Assembly (NCBI RefSeq): GCF_004363805.1
Contig: NZ_SNZP01000004.1
Coordinates: 124,001 to 188,000, forward strand
Source of the DNA: Paludibacterium purpuratum
GTDB lineage: Bacteria; Pseudomonadota; Gammaproteobacteria; Burkholderiales; Chromobacteriaceae
Direction of reading: 5' to 3'
Length of the DNA stretch: 64,000 bases
The number at the start of each line of letters is the position of its first letter. Position 1 is the first letter of the stretch. Shown here piece after piece: positions 22,410 to 27,485 of the stretch. Made by a program: the position numbers and the translations under genes. Under the pieces are notes generated by a model. That model saw nothing but the letters and a program-made list of their open reading frames with translations, did no database searches and was not told the DNA's origin.

Positions 22410-22796
22410 CTAGCCGCCGCTTTTGAGCTTGCGGTAGTCTGCCAACACCCCATCCGCCAACTGCCAAGCCTGGCGCAACGCTTCGCCGAGCTTGTCGTCG
22501 GTGAAGGCCAGACTCGGATCCTGCGCTTGCAAGGCGCGTAGCGCGCACTGACACACCTCGACACATTGGTTGAAATCGCCGGCACTGATCACCTTGCCGT
22601 GGCGGATCTTGCGATAGTGGATCGCGGTCATCGACAGGTATTGCTGCGTGCGCTCGGCCAGTATTTCACCCTGCTCGCGTTGCCATTGAAACAAGGTGTC
22701 CATCAGCGTGCGGCAGGCGTTTTCGGTGCGCTGCCAGCGCTTGCTCTCGTCTTGGCGTGCGGCTTTGGTTGGGGTGGTGGGTTTTTTGTTGGTCAT
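22410..22796 (-). CDS. Hypothetical protein
   Basis: 128-aa basic, mostly helical cytoplasmic protein beginning MTNKKPTTPTKAARQDESKRWQ. It has no membrane segment or signal. Motifs such as WQREQGEILAERTQQYLSMTAIHYRKIRHGKVISAGDF suggest a helical bundle, but I recognise no family. The start at 22796 was chosen because the frame upstream has no protein-like character, although no clear Shine-Dalgarno is visible. It stands alone and has its own terminator. Confidence 0.65.
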   Translation of the reverse strand: MTNKKPTTPTKAARQDESKRWQRTENACRTLMDTLFQWQREQGEILAERTQQYLSMTAIHYRKIRHGKVISAGDFNQCVEVCQCALRALQAQDPSLAFTDDKLGEALRQAWQLADGVLADYRKLKSGG

Positions 22797-23202
22797 GTGG
22801 GTGGGGATACTGTGGTGGTAGGGGGATTTTACATGAGGAACCGCCACCCATCCCATTGGCGGCTTTTCACCTTGTGCTAACGCTGACCCTAGTCCGAAAA
22901 TCCCTAGCACCTCACCTGAGGTCGTTTTCCAGGAATGAATTGAATCACCCCGCGTTTTGTAGTCACAGTGACGTCTGCTTCCCCTCAAAATCGGTTGTTT
23001 GGGTCGGGAGCGTCGAATGGCTACTTCGGCCAAAGCGGTCTGTCAGCATGGTGGAACGTAACGACCGGTTTACACCGAACTTCGGACACGTCCCCTGCTG
23101 GGCTGTTCAATTCAGGCTGACCATCACATTAAGCCGATCACCTCACACCTCTTAGGGACCTCTTTAAGCAATCCTGAAAGGTTCGTTTCAAGCGATGTGA
23201 TC
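22797..23202. other. Intergenic region at left edge of R-M island
   Basis: About 400 bp without a supported gene. It includes an inverted repeat ACCTCA-CC-TGAGGT near 22909-22923. GC content falls toward the R-M genes. No transposon end or tRNA fragment was found here, so the left border of the island is not defined. Confidence 0.4.
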
Positions 23203-23231
23203 TTGACAGTATCTTCGCGTGTGTCAACAAT
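23203..23231 (+). promoter_or_regulatory. Promoter of the R-M operon
   Basis: A perfect -35 TTGACA (23203-23208) and a -10-like AACAAT (23226-23231) lie 17 bp apart, 32 bp upstream of the RHH gene. TTGACA is also one arm of an inverted repeat with TGTCAA at 23222-23227. Confidence 0.6.
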
Positions 23232-23241
23232 GAACACATTG
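23228..23241. promoter_or_regulatory. Candidate operator for the RHH protein
   Basis: Perfect inverted repeat CAATG-AACA-CATTG overlapping the -10 element. Its position would block transcription. Short palindromes at promoters are typical targets of ribbon-helix-helix autoregulators, and such a gene follows directly. Confidence 0.5.
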
Positions 23242-23263
23242 CACATCCAGCGGGTTTTTTGCC

Positions 23264-23491
23264 ATGAGTGAAGACATTGGTCTGCGCATCCGCGTGGATG
23301 ATAAACTGCGGCACGAATTTATCGAGATTTGTAAGGCGCGAGATACCACGGCGGCTCAAGTTCTCCGTGCATTCATGAGATCGTATGTCGAAGAGCATGG
23401 AGAAAGAATTCGACAACCTAGGCTCTTTGAAGCCCCCTCCTCTCTGGACTCAGTGATTCGCGAGCCGACTAATGCTGAAAATAATAGATGA
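23264..23491 (+). CDS. Ribbon-helix-helix protein, possible R-M controller
   Basis: 75-aa protein. Residues 5-48 (IGLRIRVDDKLRHEFIEICKARDTTAAQVLRAFMRSYVEEHG) have the beta-strand/helix/helix pattern of a CopG/Arc-like DNA-binding domain. The tail is Pro/Asn-rich. The stop overlaps the methyltransferase ATG (ATGA), so the two are coupled. R-M systems usually use a helix-turn-helix C-protein; an RHH protein in that place is unusual. Its role as controller of the operon is inferred from position and the palindromes on the promoter. The plain alternative is an antitoxin-like orphan. Confidence 0.75.
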   Translation: MSEDIGLRIRVDDKLRHEFIEICKARDTTAAQVLRAFMRSYVEEHGERIRQPRLFEAPSSLDSVIREPTNAENNR

Positions 23492-25686
23492 AAAAGCTCA
23501 CGACAATTTCGCTGTTCGCTGGTGGTGGCGGACTAACCCTTGGTATCGGCAAAGCTGGTTTCGAAACGTTGTTCGCGACGGATTTGGAGCCCTCTTCAGC
23601 AGCAACCTTTGGCATCAATCTTCCTAAAGTCCCTTTCTATCAAGGTGACGTACGGCGCTTAAGCAGAGATTTGCTTGAAAAAAATATTGGCAATAGGAAA
23701 GTCGATTTGGTTGTTGGAGGACCTCCTTGCCAAGGCTTTTCAACTCTAGGCGACCAAAACCCCGCGGATCCAAGAAATGGACTTTTCTGGTGCTTTGCGA
23801 GGGTGGTGGAATGGCTTGCCCCTCCGTGCTTCTTGATGGAAAACGTTAATTATCTCCGTACCCAATATGGCGGGCGGTATGAGCGCGAGATCGTCGAAGC
23901 CTTTGAGCGCTTGGGTTATCACGTTTGGGTGACAACGCTTAACGCTGCAGACTTCGGTGTCCCGCAAGTCCGAAAAAGAGTTTTCTTCTTTGGCTCCAAG
24001 TTAGAGTTCCCATTTAAATGGCCTACTCCAACTCACGGTACTTCTGAGACACCGTACGAAACTGTTTGGCAAGCAATTGGTGATTTGAGTCATGGGGCCA
24101 CCGAGATCCAGAATCATTCGTTTCTACGCCACGGGGACACCGTTGTCGCAAGGTACCGCTTGATTCCTGAGGGGGGGCGAATGCCGCCTCCGGCGGAGCT
24201 ACCTGAGGAAATCCGCCGCAAAAATTTCGGAAATACATACAAGCGACTACACCGTCATCGGCCGTCGCTTACGCTTGTTCCCGGAAACAACGCATTTCCT
24301 GTGCACCCTATAGAGCATCGCAGCCTGTCTCCTCGTGAGGCAGCCCGTTTACAGACTTTTCCGGACCACTACGTGTTTCAGGGCTCTCGCGCTGAACAGT
24401 GCAAACTTGTTGGCAACGCGGTCCCGGTCTTGCTGGCTCAGCGACTGGGAGAGGCAATCAAGGCCCATATTGCGGGAGAAGTGCCTGCGTCCGAGGGCGA
24501 GCAACTGCAATCATCTATATCAAACGTACCAAGGAATACACGGACAGTGAAAACACAGCCGAAGGTAAAACCGACTGATGTAACGGCGGTGAGCTTCTTT
24601 ACCGGAATAGGCGGGCTCATGCTCGGGTTCCTTAACGCCGGAGTACGTGTTGCAGCGTCGTACGACATGAAAAACAGTGTCGAAAAGAACCTAAATCTCA
24701 ACTTCCCTAATGTCCAACATGTTCGAGCGGACGTCGCTGAGTTGTCCCTTGATGACGTTAAGGCGCAGTTGGCGGGTCAAAAAGTCGATATTGTTTTTGG
24801 AGGGCCCCCCTGCCAAGGATTTTCGATTTTCGGTAGACGGCGGTTCGTAAATACTCAAGACCACCGACCTGATCAGGACGAGCGGAATGAGCTTTCGCTG
24901 AAATACGTCGATTTGGCAATTGGTTTGGCACCGCGCGTAATTTTTTTGGAAAATGTGAAAGGGTTTACCTCAACACCTAGAGGCAACTCGAGCTATTTGG
25001 TGGAAATTGAAAGGCTTCTCCACGAGGCCGGGTACGAGCTTGAGTATCGTGTCGTGAATTGCGCAGATTATGGTATTCCGCAACTCAGAGAGCGCTTCAT
25101 ACTAGTAGCATGGGCTCAAGGTCTGAAATTTCAATGGCCAGAACCAAAACACTTTATGGCCCCAAAATCATGGCAAAAAGCCTACGTAACTGTTGGGGAT
25201 GTGCTCACCGATTTGATGGATACATCCACCCATAGCGCGGACTTCAGCCACGTTCCAATGGCACACAAGGAACTTGTGATTGAGCGATATAAGCTAATCC
25301 CGGAGGGTGGAAGGCTTCCTGAAAGCGGTCTGCCTGAACACCTGAAGAAAGGCTATCGAACCGACGAAGTCAAAAATTTCAGCCATGTTTACAAGCGTTT
25401 GTCTATGAGCGCGCCCGCAACAACAATGGTTCCAGGGCATAATGCTTTCCCTGTACACCCTATTCTTCACCGGACGTTGACTGTGCGAGAGGCTGCACGG
25501 ATTCAAACATTTCCAGATTGGATGCGGTTTGTAGGTACGCGGCAGCAGCAATGTACCCTTGTTGGTAACGCAGTACCTCCTTTGCTTGCTGAGATATTCG
25601 CAAATAACATTGTGAAAACCATCAAGGGAAACTTCGATTCTGAAGGTTATAAGCGAGACGTATACGATCTAGCGACTGCAAAATGA
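23488..25686 (+). CDS. Fused double DNA (cytosine-5) methyltransferase
   Basis: 732-aa protein made of two complete C5-methyltransferases in tandem. Half 1 (about 1-340): motif I SLFAGGGGLTLG, motif IV GGPPCQGFS with catalytic Cys81, motif VI MENV (Glu118), motif VIII QVRKR, and motifs IX/X near REAARLQTFPD and LVGNAVP. Half 2 (about 363-720): SFFTGIGGLMLG, GGPPCQGFS (Cys442), LENV (Glu488), QLRER, REAARIQTFPD, LVGNAVP. The halves share RYxLIPEGGR and VPGxNAFPVHPIxHR, so they arose by duplication. Each has its own short target-recognition region. The expected role is to methylate the two strands of an asymmetric site and protect it from the downstream nuclease. Confidence 0.93.
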   Translation: MKKLTTISLFAGGGGLTLGIGKAGFETLFATDLEPSSAATFGINLPKVPFYQGDVRRLSRDLLEKNIGNRKVDLVVGGPPCQGFSTLGDQNPADPRNGLFWCFARVVEWLAPPCFLMENVNYLRTQYGGRYEREIVEAFERLGYHVWVTTLNAADFGVPQVRKRVFFFGSKLEFPFKWPTPTHGTSETPYETVWQAIGDLSHGATEIQNHSFLRHGDTVVARYRLIPEGGRMPPPAELPEEIRRKNFGNTYKRLHRHRPSLTLVPGNNAFPVHPIEHRSLSPREAARLQTFPDHYVFQGSRAEQCKLVGNAVPVLLAQRLGEAIKAHIAGEVPASEGEQLQSSISNVPRNTRTVKTQPKVKPTDVTAVSFFTGIGGLMLGFLNAGVRVAASYDMKNSVEKNLNLNFPNVQHVRADVAELSLDDVKAQLAGQKVDIVFGGPPCQGFSIFGRRRFVNTQDHRPDQDERNELSLKYVDLAIGLAPRVIFLENVKGFTSTPRGNSSYLVEIERLLHEAGYELEYRVVNCADYGIPQLRERFILVAWAQGLKFQWPEPKHFMAPKSWQKAYVTVGDVLTDLMDTSTHSADFSHVPMAHKELVIERYKLIPEGGRLPESGLPEHLKKGYRTDEVKNFSHVYKRLSMSAPATTMVPGHNAFPVHPILHRTLTVREAARIQTFPDWMRFVGTRQQQCTLVGNAVPPLLAEIFANNIVKTIKGNFDSEGYKRDVYDLATAK

Positions 25687-26834
25687 CTAACCACGATATA
25701 TTGGCGTACGCAGTGGCCACGGAGGCCGTCGCCCGCTTGAGAGCGGGAGCGGCTCCTTGGAATTCGATTTTTTCCGCCAGCGCCTACATAACCGCGTCTC
25801 GCGCTTGGCCTGTCCCCGACTTCGTCCTGGTCGACAGCACGAACTCGCTAACCATCGCTGCAGAGTTCAAGCCCCCTCTTCAGTCCAAGCGCGAATACCT
25901 GACAGGTCTGGGCCAAGCGATCGCGTATTCAAAAGATTTTCACTACGGGTTGTTGATCCTTCCAGAAATCGCAGATGATGGATACCCAATCGCTAGGCAT
26001 GTTGTTGATGTTCTACAGCAGGGGTCTCTTGCTGGGATTCCTGTTGGCGTCCTTAGCTATGCGCCAGCTACCTTCTCCCCCCATCATCCCGCGTTTACGG
26101 AAGCACATTTCTTCTCTCCCCGCTCCACGGCGCCTAGCCACCTTGCTCATCTCGACAATAGCTTCTACGCCAAATGGCGAGAAATGAGTCCACAAGAGGT
26201 TTTGCTTTTGCTTGCATTTTGTTACGACGAGATGCGCACACCGTCCTCATCATCGGGGACTGTCCGAGACCGTGCCTTTGATCTCCTGTGGCAGGAGATT
26301 CAAGCTGGGAGAGTAACGCATTGGGCAGGAGGGGTTCGCCACTATTCGGCGGGAACCAAAACAGCAGTCAGCAAAAATTACCGGAATTTCCTATTCCATT
26401 TAGGGTGGACTGAGGCGGATGGGGCGTTAACGAAGGAGGGTTTGGATGCTCTCCACGTAGGTACCTTGTATGGCCATTCCTCTCGCCCTTTTGGGGATTC
26501 CATTGCTACGGCTGCGCTTACGACTGGCAAGCACCTGATTCTCTTCAATGCAATCAGTGAATTTCAAGATTCGCTTGGCAGCGCGTTCCCGAATGAGAGC
26601 GACTGGCTAGATCAACTTGAGTCATTCTTAGAGGTGAAGGGGTTGCTGAAACGTAACCCAGCCCGTGGCGCAGCTGCCATAGCAGGTTCAGCCAGGCAAT
26701 TTCTCAAGGCAGAAAAACAGTTCTGGAAAAATCTTGAATTAATTATTCCAAGAGGAAGCCGCGTATTTCATCCTAGCCGAGGATTCATTTTCAATTGGTC
26801 GCGCATCACGGATCTCCTTCAGTCCTCCCTGTGA
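25683..26834 (+). CDS. Putative restriction endonuclease, PD-(D/E)XK type
   Basis: 383-aa protein whose ATG overlaps the methyltransferase stop (ATGA). Residues 45-63 (PDFVLVD...LTIAAEFKPP) fit the PD-(D/E)XK nuclease core, with Asp46, Glu61 and Lys63. GLGQAIAYSKDFHYGLLILPE follows, as expected for the next core strand. The C-terminal half has no recognised domain and may recognise DNA. Position after a C5-methyltransferase and translational coupling support a type II restriction enzyme. Sequence similarity to a named enzyme was not recognised, so the specificity is unknown. Confidence 0.72.
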   Translation: MTNHDILAYAVATEAVARLRAGAAPWNSIFSASAYITASRAWPVPDFVLVDSTNSLTIAAEFKPPLQSKREYLTGLGQAIAYSKDFHYGLLILPEIADDGYPIARHVVDVLQQGSLAGIPVGVLSYAPATFSPHHPAFTEAHFFSPRSTAPSHLAHLDNSFYAKWREMSPQEVLLLLAFCYDEMRTPSSSSGTVRDRAFDLLWQEIQAGRVTHWAGGVRHYSAGTKTAVSKNYRNFLFHLGWTEADGALTKEGLDALHVGTLYGHSSRPFGDSIATAALTTGKHLILFNAISEFQDSLGSAFPNESDWLDQLESFLEVKGLLKRNPARGAAAIAGSARQFLKAEKQFWKNLELIIPRGSRVFHPSRGFIFNWSRITDLLQSSL

Positions 26835-27135
26835 CCAACTGAAGCTGTCGCGACTCATTCCATCGCATGGTGGTATGCTGCCCTGTGCTGTAGGCGTCCA
26901 GCCCCAGCACGACCGTCTTCATGTTGTCGAACAGCACCTCCTGCGGCACCTCGTGGAAATAGTCACACGCGGCCTGCAAGTAGGCACGTACCGACTCAAA
27001 GCTCTCGCAGATGACAAAGCGCACGAACGACATGCGGCTATAACCCAGTGTGGCCACGAAGGCCGATAGCGGCGACCGTCCGCGAAACACCACGAAATCC
27101 GCCTGCATCCGACGTCCGGGCTCGGTTTCGAAACG
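26835..27135 (-). pseudogene. IS21-family transposase IstA fragment
   Basis: Minus-strand frame with RFETEPGRRMQADFVVFRG, AFVATLGYSRMSFVRFV and DYFHEVPQEVLFDNMKTVVLG, all part of the IS21 IstA catalytic core. Only about 100 of roughly 400-500 residues remain, and both ends of the gene and istB are missing. It stops just where the restriction gene ends, so the cassette was probably joined to this scar. It cannot encode an active transposase. Confidence 0.8.
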
Positions 27136-27400: not shown

Positions 27401-27485
27401 TGGTGCCCAGGGCCGGACTCGAACCGGCACACCTTGCGGCGGGGGATTTTGAGTCCCCTGCGTCTACCAATTTCGCCACCTGGGC
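27401..27485 (-). tRNA. tRNA-Leu (CAA)
   Basis: 85-nt tRNA ending in an encoded CCA. The acceptor stem is GCCCAGG / CCTGGGC with discriminator A. The D-arm contains TTGGTAGAC, the anticodon arm is GGGGA-CTCAAAA-TCCCC with anticodon CAA, a long variable arm of the leucine class follows, and the T-arm is CCGGTTCGAACCCGG. It lies downstream of rsmI on the same strand. The island with the R-M genes and integrase remnant is on its 3' side. Confidence 0.96.

Follow-up and report, generated by a model that had tools for sequence, protein, structure and literature searches.

The 64,000-nucleotide stretch of Paludibacterium purpuratum DNA studied here (NZ_SNZP01000004.1, positions 124,001 to 188,000 of the forward strand; hereafter the window) contains a compact three-gene cassette encoding a small ribbon-helix-helix (RHH) protein, a fused double cytosine C5-methyltransferase and a PD-(D/E)XK nuclease. 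Sequence comparison shows the nuclease to be distantly related to the Type IIS restriction enzyme PaqCI and shorter than it, and places the cassette as a divergent branch within an already known type of restriction-modification (R-M) system. We read the whole as a horizontally acquired Type IIS R-M operon of the PaqCI/BspMI kind, working as proposed below, and give this reading a probability of about 0.83.

Cassette organization

A preliminary description of this DNA had proposed such a cassette, with two ATGA overlaps joining its genes, and both are borne out: the first overlap (23488-23491) links the RHH and methyltransferase genes and the second (25683-25686) the methyltransferase and nuclease genes. 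The three open reading frames (ORFs) all lie on the plus strand, and the features of the operon are as follows.

23203..23231, plus strand: sigma-70-like promoter (TTGACA at 23203-23208, spacer of 17, AACAAT at 23226-23231)
23220..23238, no strand assigned: half-sites TGTGT (23220-23224) and ACACA (23234-23238), inverted and lying on either side of the -10 element; probable operator for the RHH protein
23264..23491, plus strand: RHH protein of 75 amino acids, tail Q51-P-R-L-F55; Pfam RHH_9 at 8.8e-7; probable autorepressor
23488..25686, plus strand: fused double 5-methylcytosine methyltransferase of 732 amino acids, two PF00145 domains
25683..26834, plus strand: PaqCI-like Type IIS restriction endonuclease of 383 amino acids; phmmer, profile and hhalign matches to PaqCI (8em1)

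A search for the same three-gene order elsewhere had also been suggested. A single scan of genome contigs for nuclease relatives, which reaches close relatives only, gave four orthologous loci (L006-L009; 80, 72, 67 and 65% identity in the best segment), and the order RHH-methyltransferase-nuclease is kept in 4/4 of them, that is, in 5/5 close loci with the window counted. Because all four orthologous loci keep the same genes in the same order, the cassette is not a chance arrangement. The methyltransferase-nuclease overlap is kept in all four, the RHH-methyltransferase overlap in L007 only. Among 399 genomes of the same taxonomic order only the window's own nuclease was matched. Carriage by phages is unsupported, since neither a search of the phage collection (E 0.01) nor the eight pattern matches in viral contigs yielded a nuclease relative.

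The nuclease and its relation to PaqCI

The nuclease had been described as lacking a recognised named family, and a profile search had been proposed. This description holds for the family databases, as Pfam and NCBIfam have no family for the protein and its PADLOC match is to REase_II at E 0.02 only; it fails against the PDB, where PaqCI emerges as a recognisable named relative. PaqCI (8em1) is the sole PDB sequence reported for the nuclease by phmmer up to E 10 (E 2.6e-5), which rules out a nuclease without named relatives. A five-sequence profile of the nuclease reached PaqCI at E 6.1e-7, the only PDB sequence below E 1, the next three being MexB sequences at E 1.1. The hhalign alignment is nearly full length (nuclease residues 4-379 against PaqCI 5-506, probability 90.9, E 1.2e-6), and the PaqCI match consists of two collinear stretches, the nuclease domain and then the recognition part. 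The residues Asp46, Glu61 and Lys63, correctly singled out in the preliminary description, are invariant in the window nuclease and its four close orthologues and align with D54, E73 and K75, named as the catalytic residues of PaqCI (PMC10201449). These comparisons point to a probable N-terminal PD-(D/E)XK domain carrying D46, E61 and K63 and a C-terminal recognition part. PaqCI itself recognizes CACCTGC, cuts 4/8 nt downstream and is a tetramer acting on several sites (PMC10201449).

A PaqCI fragment was searched against 399 genomes from the taxonomic family to which one relative belongs, and two matches were obtained, that relative (31%) and locus L026 (99%); among 369 genomes of the class it matched only the window's own nuclease, and no match was found among plasmids at E 0.01. 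The L026 locus encodes a 510-amino-acid protein that aligns over residues 1-510 with 8em1 and is near-identical to PaqCI. An 83-amino-acid RHH-like ORF precedes this gene and a 771-amino-acid fused double C5-methyltransferase follows it; the assignment of the small ORF, which has no Pfam match, rests on its alignment with the window RHH protein (24% identity) and on its sequence pattern. The combination of fusion, RHH protein and nuclease had looked new. Because L026 holds the same three parts, the combination is not unique, and the cassette represents a known kind in a different gene order. More distant relatives, 25-26% identical to the nuclease, are encoded by four Acinetobacter plasmids. 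Three of these loci were inspected: in pBspH11 (L003) and pAV1 (L004) the fused methyltransferase gene lies directly before the gene for the nuclease relative, here of 418 amino acids, and the L005 stretch, cut off at the start of a circular record, shows no methyltransferase gene, although methyltransferase matches lie elsewhere in that record.

The methyltransferase and the predicted recognition site

As the preliminary description had it, C5 motifs occur in each half of the 732-amino-acid protein, which contains two PF00145 domains with PPCQGF in both; the P. purpuratum genome has no other PF00145 match at E 0.001. The protein shares 48% identity with the fused methyltransferase encoded beside PaqCI and 44% with the Acinetobacter one. 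A fused methyltransferase pair acting on complementary motifs, there producing N6-methyladenine, was shown for MhoVII (PMC12898733).

The target recognition domains (TRDs) and the catalytic cores were compared in an alignment of the fused enzymes, split into their halves, with 10 control C5-methyltransferases hand-picked from 30 listed matches. Between the window and PaqCI enzymes, TRD and core identities are 57.4 and 51.8% in the N half (Fisher p 0.20) and 55.8 and 39.2% in the C half (p 0.0016); against the Acinetobacter enzyme they are 50.0 and 46.7% (p 0.33) and 51.7 and 38.3% (p 0.0098), respectively. The same-half TRD identity to PaqCI (56-57%) exceeds the cross-half values (42-43%), and TRD identity of the controls to the window halves lies below core identity in 19/20 comparisons, two controls covering few TRD columns (71-76). 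Because the TRDs match those of PaqCI at least as well as the cores do, we infer a recognition site of the ACCTGC type, close to ACCTGC or CACCTGC.

Several observations weigh against so close a correspondence with PaqCI. Identity between the two nucleases is only 26%, and the window nuclease is the shorter by 127 amino acids (383 against 510), so that a PaqCI-like cutting distance and oligomeric state are unproven; its recognition stretch is not significant by itself (i-Evalue 74 in one comparison, 1.4 with the five-sequence profile). The TRD excess is significant in the C half and not in the N half. When the N half of an enzyme is compared with its own C half, TRD identity again exceeds core identity in 6/7 enzymes, at lower identities of 41-50% (44.9 against 39.6% in the window enzyme; 41.1 against 46.1% in that of PaqCI), so part of the excess may not mean identical specificity. 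Finally, ACCTGC is not avoided in the window, with 52 occurrences found for 46.9 expected, and CACCTGC occurs 22 times for 15.4 expected.

Most of these points would equally suit an enzyme of the same architecture whose site has diverged from ACCTGC, giving a new Type IIS specificity, a possibility compatible with the PaqCI/BspMI reading in everything except the site. Large gaps in the middle and C-terminal parts of the nuclease/PaqCI alignment, and the only partial match of the window nuclease to an arginine-rich stretch near the PaqCI C-terminus, favour it further, whereas the level at which the TRDs match those of PaqCI, above both the core and the cross-half values, speaks for a conserved site, and the Acinetobacter TRDs match nearly as well. 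We regard a diverged site as quite possible, with chances somewhat short of even.

The RHH protein, its promoter and operator

The 75-amino-acid protein matches Pfam RHH_9 (PF19839) with 29.1 bits against a cut-off of 23.4. It matches RHH_9 and RelB only, with no helix-turn-helix (HTH, Xre-like) match, in keeping with the earlier proposal that an RHH protein takes the place of the usual HTH controller. Among the relatives scanned, the L009 protein lies above the RHH_9 cut-off and those of L006 and L008 just below it; the RelB/DinJ similarity of the RHH domain lies under the curated cut-offs. DndE, with its two RHH repeats (PMC10853773), and ParG (PMC3346939) were considered and are different from this RHH companion.

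The putative promoter has 10/12 consensus matches. The call is weak alone, the scanned region holding five promoter-like sites against a shuffle mean of 3.4; the promoter sits in a block conserved upstream of the RHH gene in five loci (window and L006-L009). Within the operator block the GTG and ACAC columns are invariant in 5/5 loci, and the corresponding part of L009 contains a perfect inverted repeat of 12 nt. The window copy is imperfect, and the repeat finder at its thresholds reported no inverted repeat there. We infer that the RHH protein autorepresses the operon through the predicted TGTGT/ACACA operator. RHH repressors acting as third components are known from toxin-antitoxin operons, namely Omega and PaaR (PMC3874152).

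A clamp-motif-like tail and its link to R-M genes

The tail of the RHH protein, QPRLF at residues 51-55, fits the QxxLF peptide, a general bacterial clamp-binding motif in which positions 1, 4 and 5 are critical (PMC12309361). A Q-x-x-L-F sequence starts at residue 49-51 in 6/6 RHH proteins of this R-M family (window, L006-L009 and L026), the tails being QPRLF, QGQLF, QPELF, QGHLF, QGQLF and QGSLF, with Q, L and F invariant. The R-M linkage of these six is given, because the loci were found through the nuclease.

Further loci came from searches for RHH relatives. One of these searches gave 36 places, 30 of them readable, with three tailed proteins besides the window's (L059, L060, L072), all preceding a methyltransferase gene (p 0.0011 for the association). 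Three RHH searches were pooled, and neighbouring genes were recognised from sequence motifs in up to about 1.5 kb of downstream sequence; the 73 distinct loci besides the window comprised three with motif and methyltransferase, 67 with neither, one with the motif and no methyltransferase (L124, where the motif is internal and not a tail) and two with a methyltransferase and no motif (L045, HsdM-like, tail QLGSF; L066, probably a spurious match), giving a Fisher value of 6e-4; the first search in the pool contributed no motif case among 21. A planned replication, itself one of the three pooled searches, used a tail-less RHH profile in 261 genomes of the phylum and gave 27 loci besides the window's, four of which the earlier searches had already reached. 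Regular expressions linked none of the 27 to a methyltransferase, and none was tailed, one having an internal QETLF in a 303-amino-acid frame (L124); with no R-M-linked case among them, the replication does not bear on the link either way.

Plasmids provided further cases. Five of 18 plasmid RHH loci are tailed, and 5/5 precede R-M genes (Fisher 0.029 over the 18) of NotI type (L089, L092, L093), XamI type (L090) and NgoI type (L091). Tailed matches were favoured here, because the tblastn query included the tail; R-M linkage was no selection criterion. L089, L091 and L092 encode near-identical RHH proteins, and the Fisher values ignore relatedness. Of the 13 tail-less plasmid loci, five lie beside R-M or methyltransferase genes (L094, L095, L096, L097, L100; L096 was reached through its methyltransferase) and eight do not. 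Five of the plasmid loci, picked before their tails were known, have neither R-M neighbour nor tail. The RHH profile found one relative in viral contigs (L088), without a tail. Because tail-less RHH proteins also precede R-M genes, the tail is common but not required. Overall, RHH relatives precede NotI-, XamI- and NgoI-type and N6 R-M systems, with both C5 and N6 methyltransferases. The link between tail and R-M genes is suggestive, not proven. As the enzymes concerned go by different family names, the tail would be read most simply as serving a host partner that they have in common, such as the clamp.

Among the papers listed in literature searches, judged by title and opening of the abstract and taken from sources with few subscription papers and patents, none describes R-M systems controlled by an RHH protein that bears such a tail, and the examined text of a long R-M review (PMC12707154) contains neither 'ribbon' nor 'clamp'.

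Several side observations concern individual loci. In the plasmid NotI-family systems L089, L092, L093 and L096 an RHH/CopG gene lies before the methyltransferase gene, 113 nt away in L093, and three of the four have Qxx[LM]F tails. The tail of L096 is QLPLPL, which we take to resemble a six-residue clamp motif. In a fifth NotI-type locus (L049) the sequence ends too near the methyltransferase to show an RHH gene. The RHH protein of L067 (G093) has the tail QASLPF, possibly another clamp-like tail outside R-M, as no methyltransferase motif lies in the 1.5 kb downstream. On a Sphingobium baderi plasmid (L097) the gene directly before a Type I hsdR gene encodes a close but tail-less RHH relative (57% over 44 residues), and RHH heads may therefore also occur in Type I systems.

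Proposed mechanism

Under the PaqCI/BspMI reading, a single promoter would drive the RHH, methyltransferase and nuclease genes. Both halves of the methyltransferase would act on a single asymmetric site, probably ACCTGC or something close to it, each modifying a cytosine on one of the strands; the nuclease would read that site through its C-terminal part and cut a few bases downstream with its N-terminal PD-(D/E)XK domain, probably, as PaqCI does, in the form of an oligomer engaging several sites. An RHH dimer bound to the TGTGT/ACACA half-sites over the -10 element would repress its own operon, in the role filled elsewhere by HTH C-proteins.

Instead of this repressor function, or besides it, the RHH protein could behave like an antitoxin, inhibiting the nuclease or the methyltransferase by binding to it. 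The RelB/DinJ similarity, under the cut-offs as it is, would fit, as would the PaqCI locus, where the nuclease gene comes straight after the RHH gene; the neighbour in the window is the methyltransferase, however, and as RHH relatives precede R-M systems with differing enzymes, among them differently named nucleases and both methyltransferase classes, a shared enzyme partner is less likely. We consider such an inhibitor rather improbable. An inactive nuclease, reducing the cassette to an orphan methyltransferase, is very improbable indeed, since the catalytic triad together with G77, Q78 and Y82 is invariant in a seven-row alignment including PaqCI and the Acinetobacter relative, and the window copy of the gene has no internal stop.

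Genomic context and origin

The GC content is 0.48-0.54 inside the cassette against 0.57-0.70 around it, and outside its own genome the stretch 22600-27000 gave only short partial matches, in 13/40 relatives. The cassette thus looks foreign and rare among the genomes searched, and was probably acquired from elsewhere. A tRNA-Leu gene lies downstream (27401-27485, minus strand).

Two flanking stretches were also observed. A 39-bp stretch upstream of the operon (23094-23132) has several 88-93% matches in related genomes (for example seven in G413 and three in G407) and is a small repeat. Just past the nuclease gene, the DNA at 26865-27000 has one match in G412 (90%) and four in G403 (71% over 100 bases). 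It is overlapped by an ORF on the minus strand (26806-27108), presumably a transposase fragment from its resemblance.

Implications

Our results suggest that RHH proteins, and not HTH C-proteins alone, control R-M operons, and a peptide docking on the replication clamp may be part of that control. The broadest form of this idea is that a new family of small RHH proteins heads many unrelated R-M operons, many of its members docking on the sliding clamp through a C-terminal Qxx[LM]F peptide and so tying R-M expression or action to replication; as a whole we think it unlikely, though less so than the inhibitor considered above. If true, it would extend to operons of PaqCI-type IIS, NotI-, XamI- and NgoI-type Type II and N6 types, and a host partner common to them all would account for the same peptide turning up beside so many unrelated enzymes. 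It would also form a bacterial parallel to PCNA-recruited maintenance methylation. It offers a testable idea of how R-M systems balance methylation and cutting during replication and on entry into a new host, and the RHH companion with its clamp-like tail, the unexpected element, is the part most worth following. The cassette moreover adds a short, sequence-divergent branch with a concrete specificity prediction to the PaqCI/BspMI Type IIS family, which makes it useful to enzymologists, since Golden Gate assembly employs Type IIS cutters (PMC10201449).

Comparison with known systems

The closest known system is that of PaqCI, whose locus likewise clusters an RHH-like gene, a PD-(D/E)XK nuclease gene and a fused double C5-methyltransferase gene, with the same catalytic residues and similar TRDs (PDB 8em1/8epx; PMC10201449). 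It differs in gene order (RHH-nuclease-methyltransferase there, RHH-methyltransferase-nuclease in the window) and in its longer nuclease, and the identities of 26% for the nuclease and 24% for the RHH protein are low. The enzyme printed as Acc361 in the PaqCI paper is presumably Acc36I. BspMI and Acc36I are discussed as PaqCI isoschizomers; BspMI is stated to share 39% identity with PaqCI and to be a preformed tetramer, and M.BspMI was co-expressed with PaqCI in the production strain (PMC10201449). We liken both to the window system by their published description. The Acinetobacter plasmids pAV1 and pBspH11 share the fused double methyltransferase followed by a nuclease relative, but there the two genes do not overlap, and in pBspH11 the upstream RHH-like ORF is larger, not adjacent and without the tail. 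With the HTH C-proteins of Type II R-M systems the window operon has in common a gene for a small DNA-binding protein at its head, probably an autoregulator, of the RHH and not the HTH class. Omega and PaaR are also RHH repressors that, as third components, head operons balancing a harmful and a protective protein, although they serve toxin-antitoxin pairs (PMC3874152) and not a restriction enzyme with its methyltransferase.

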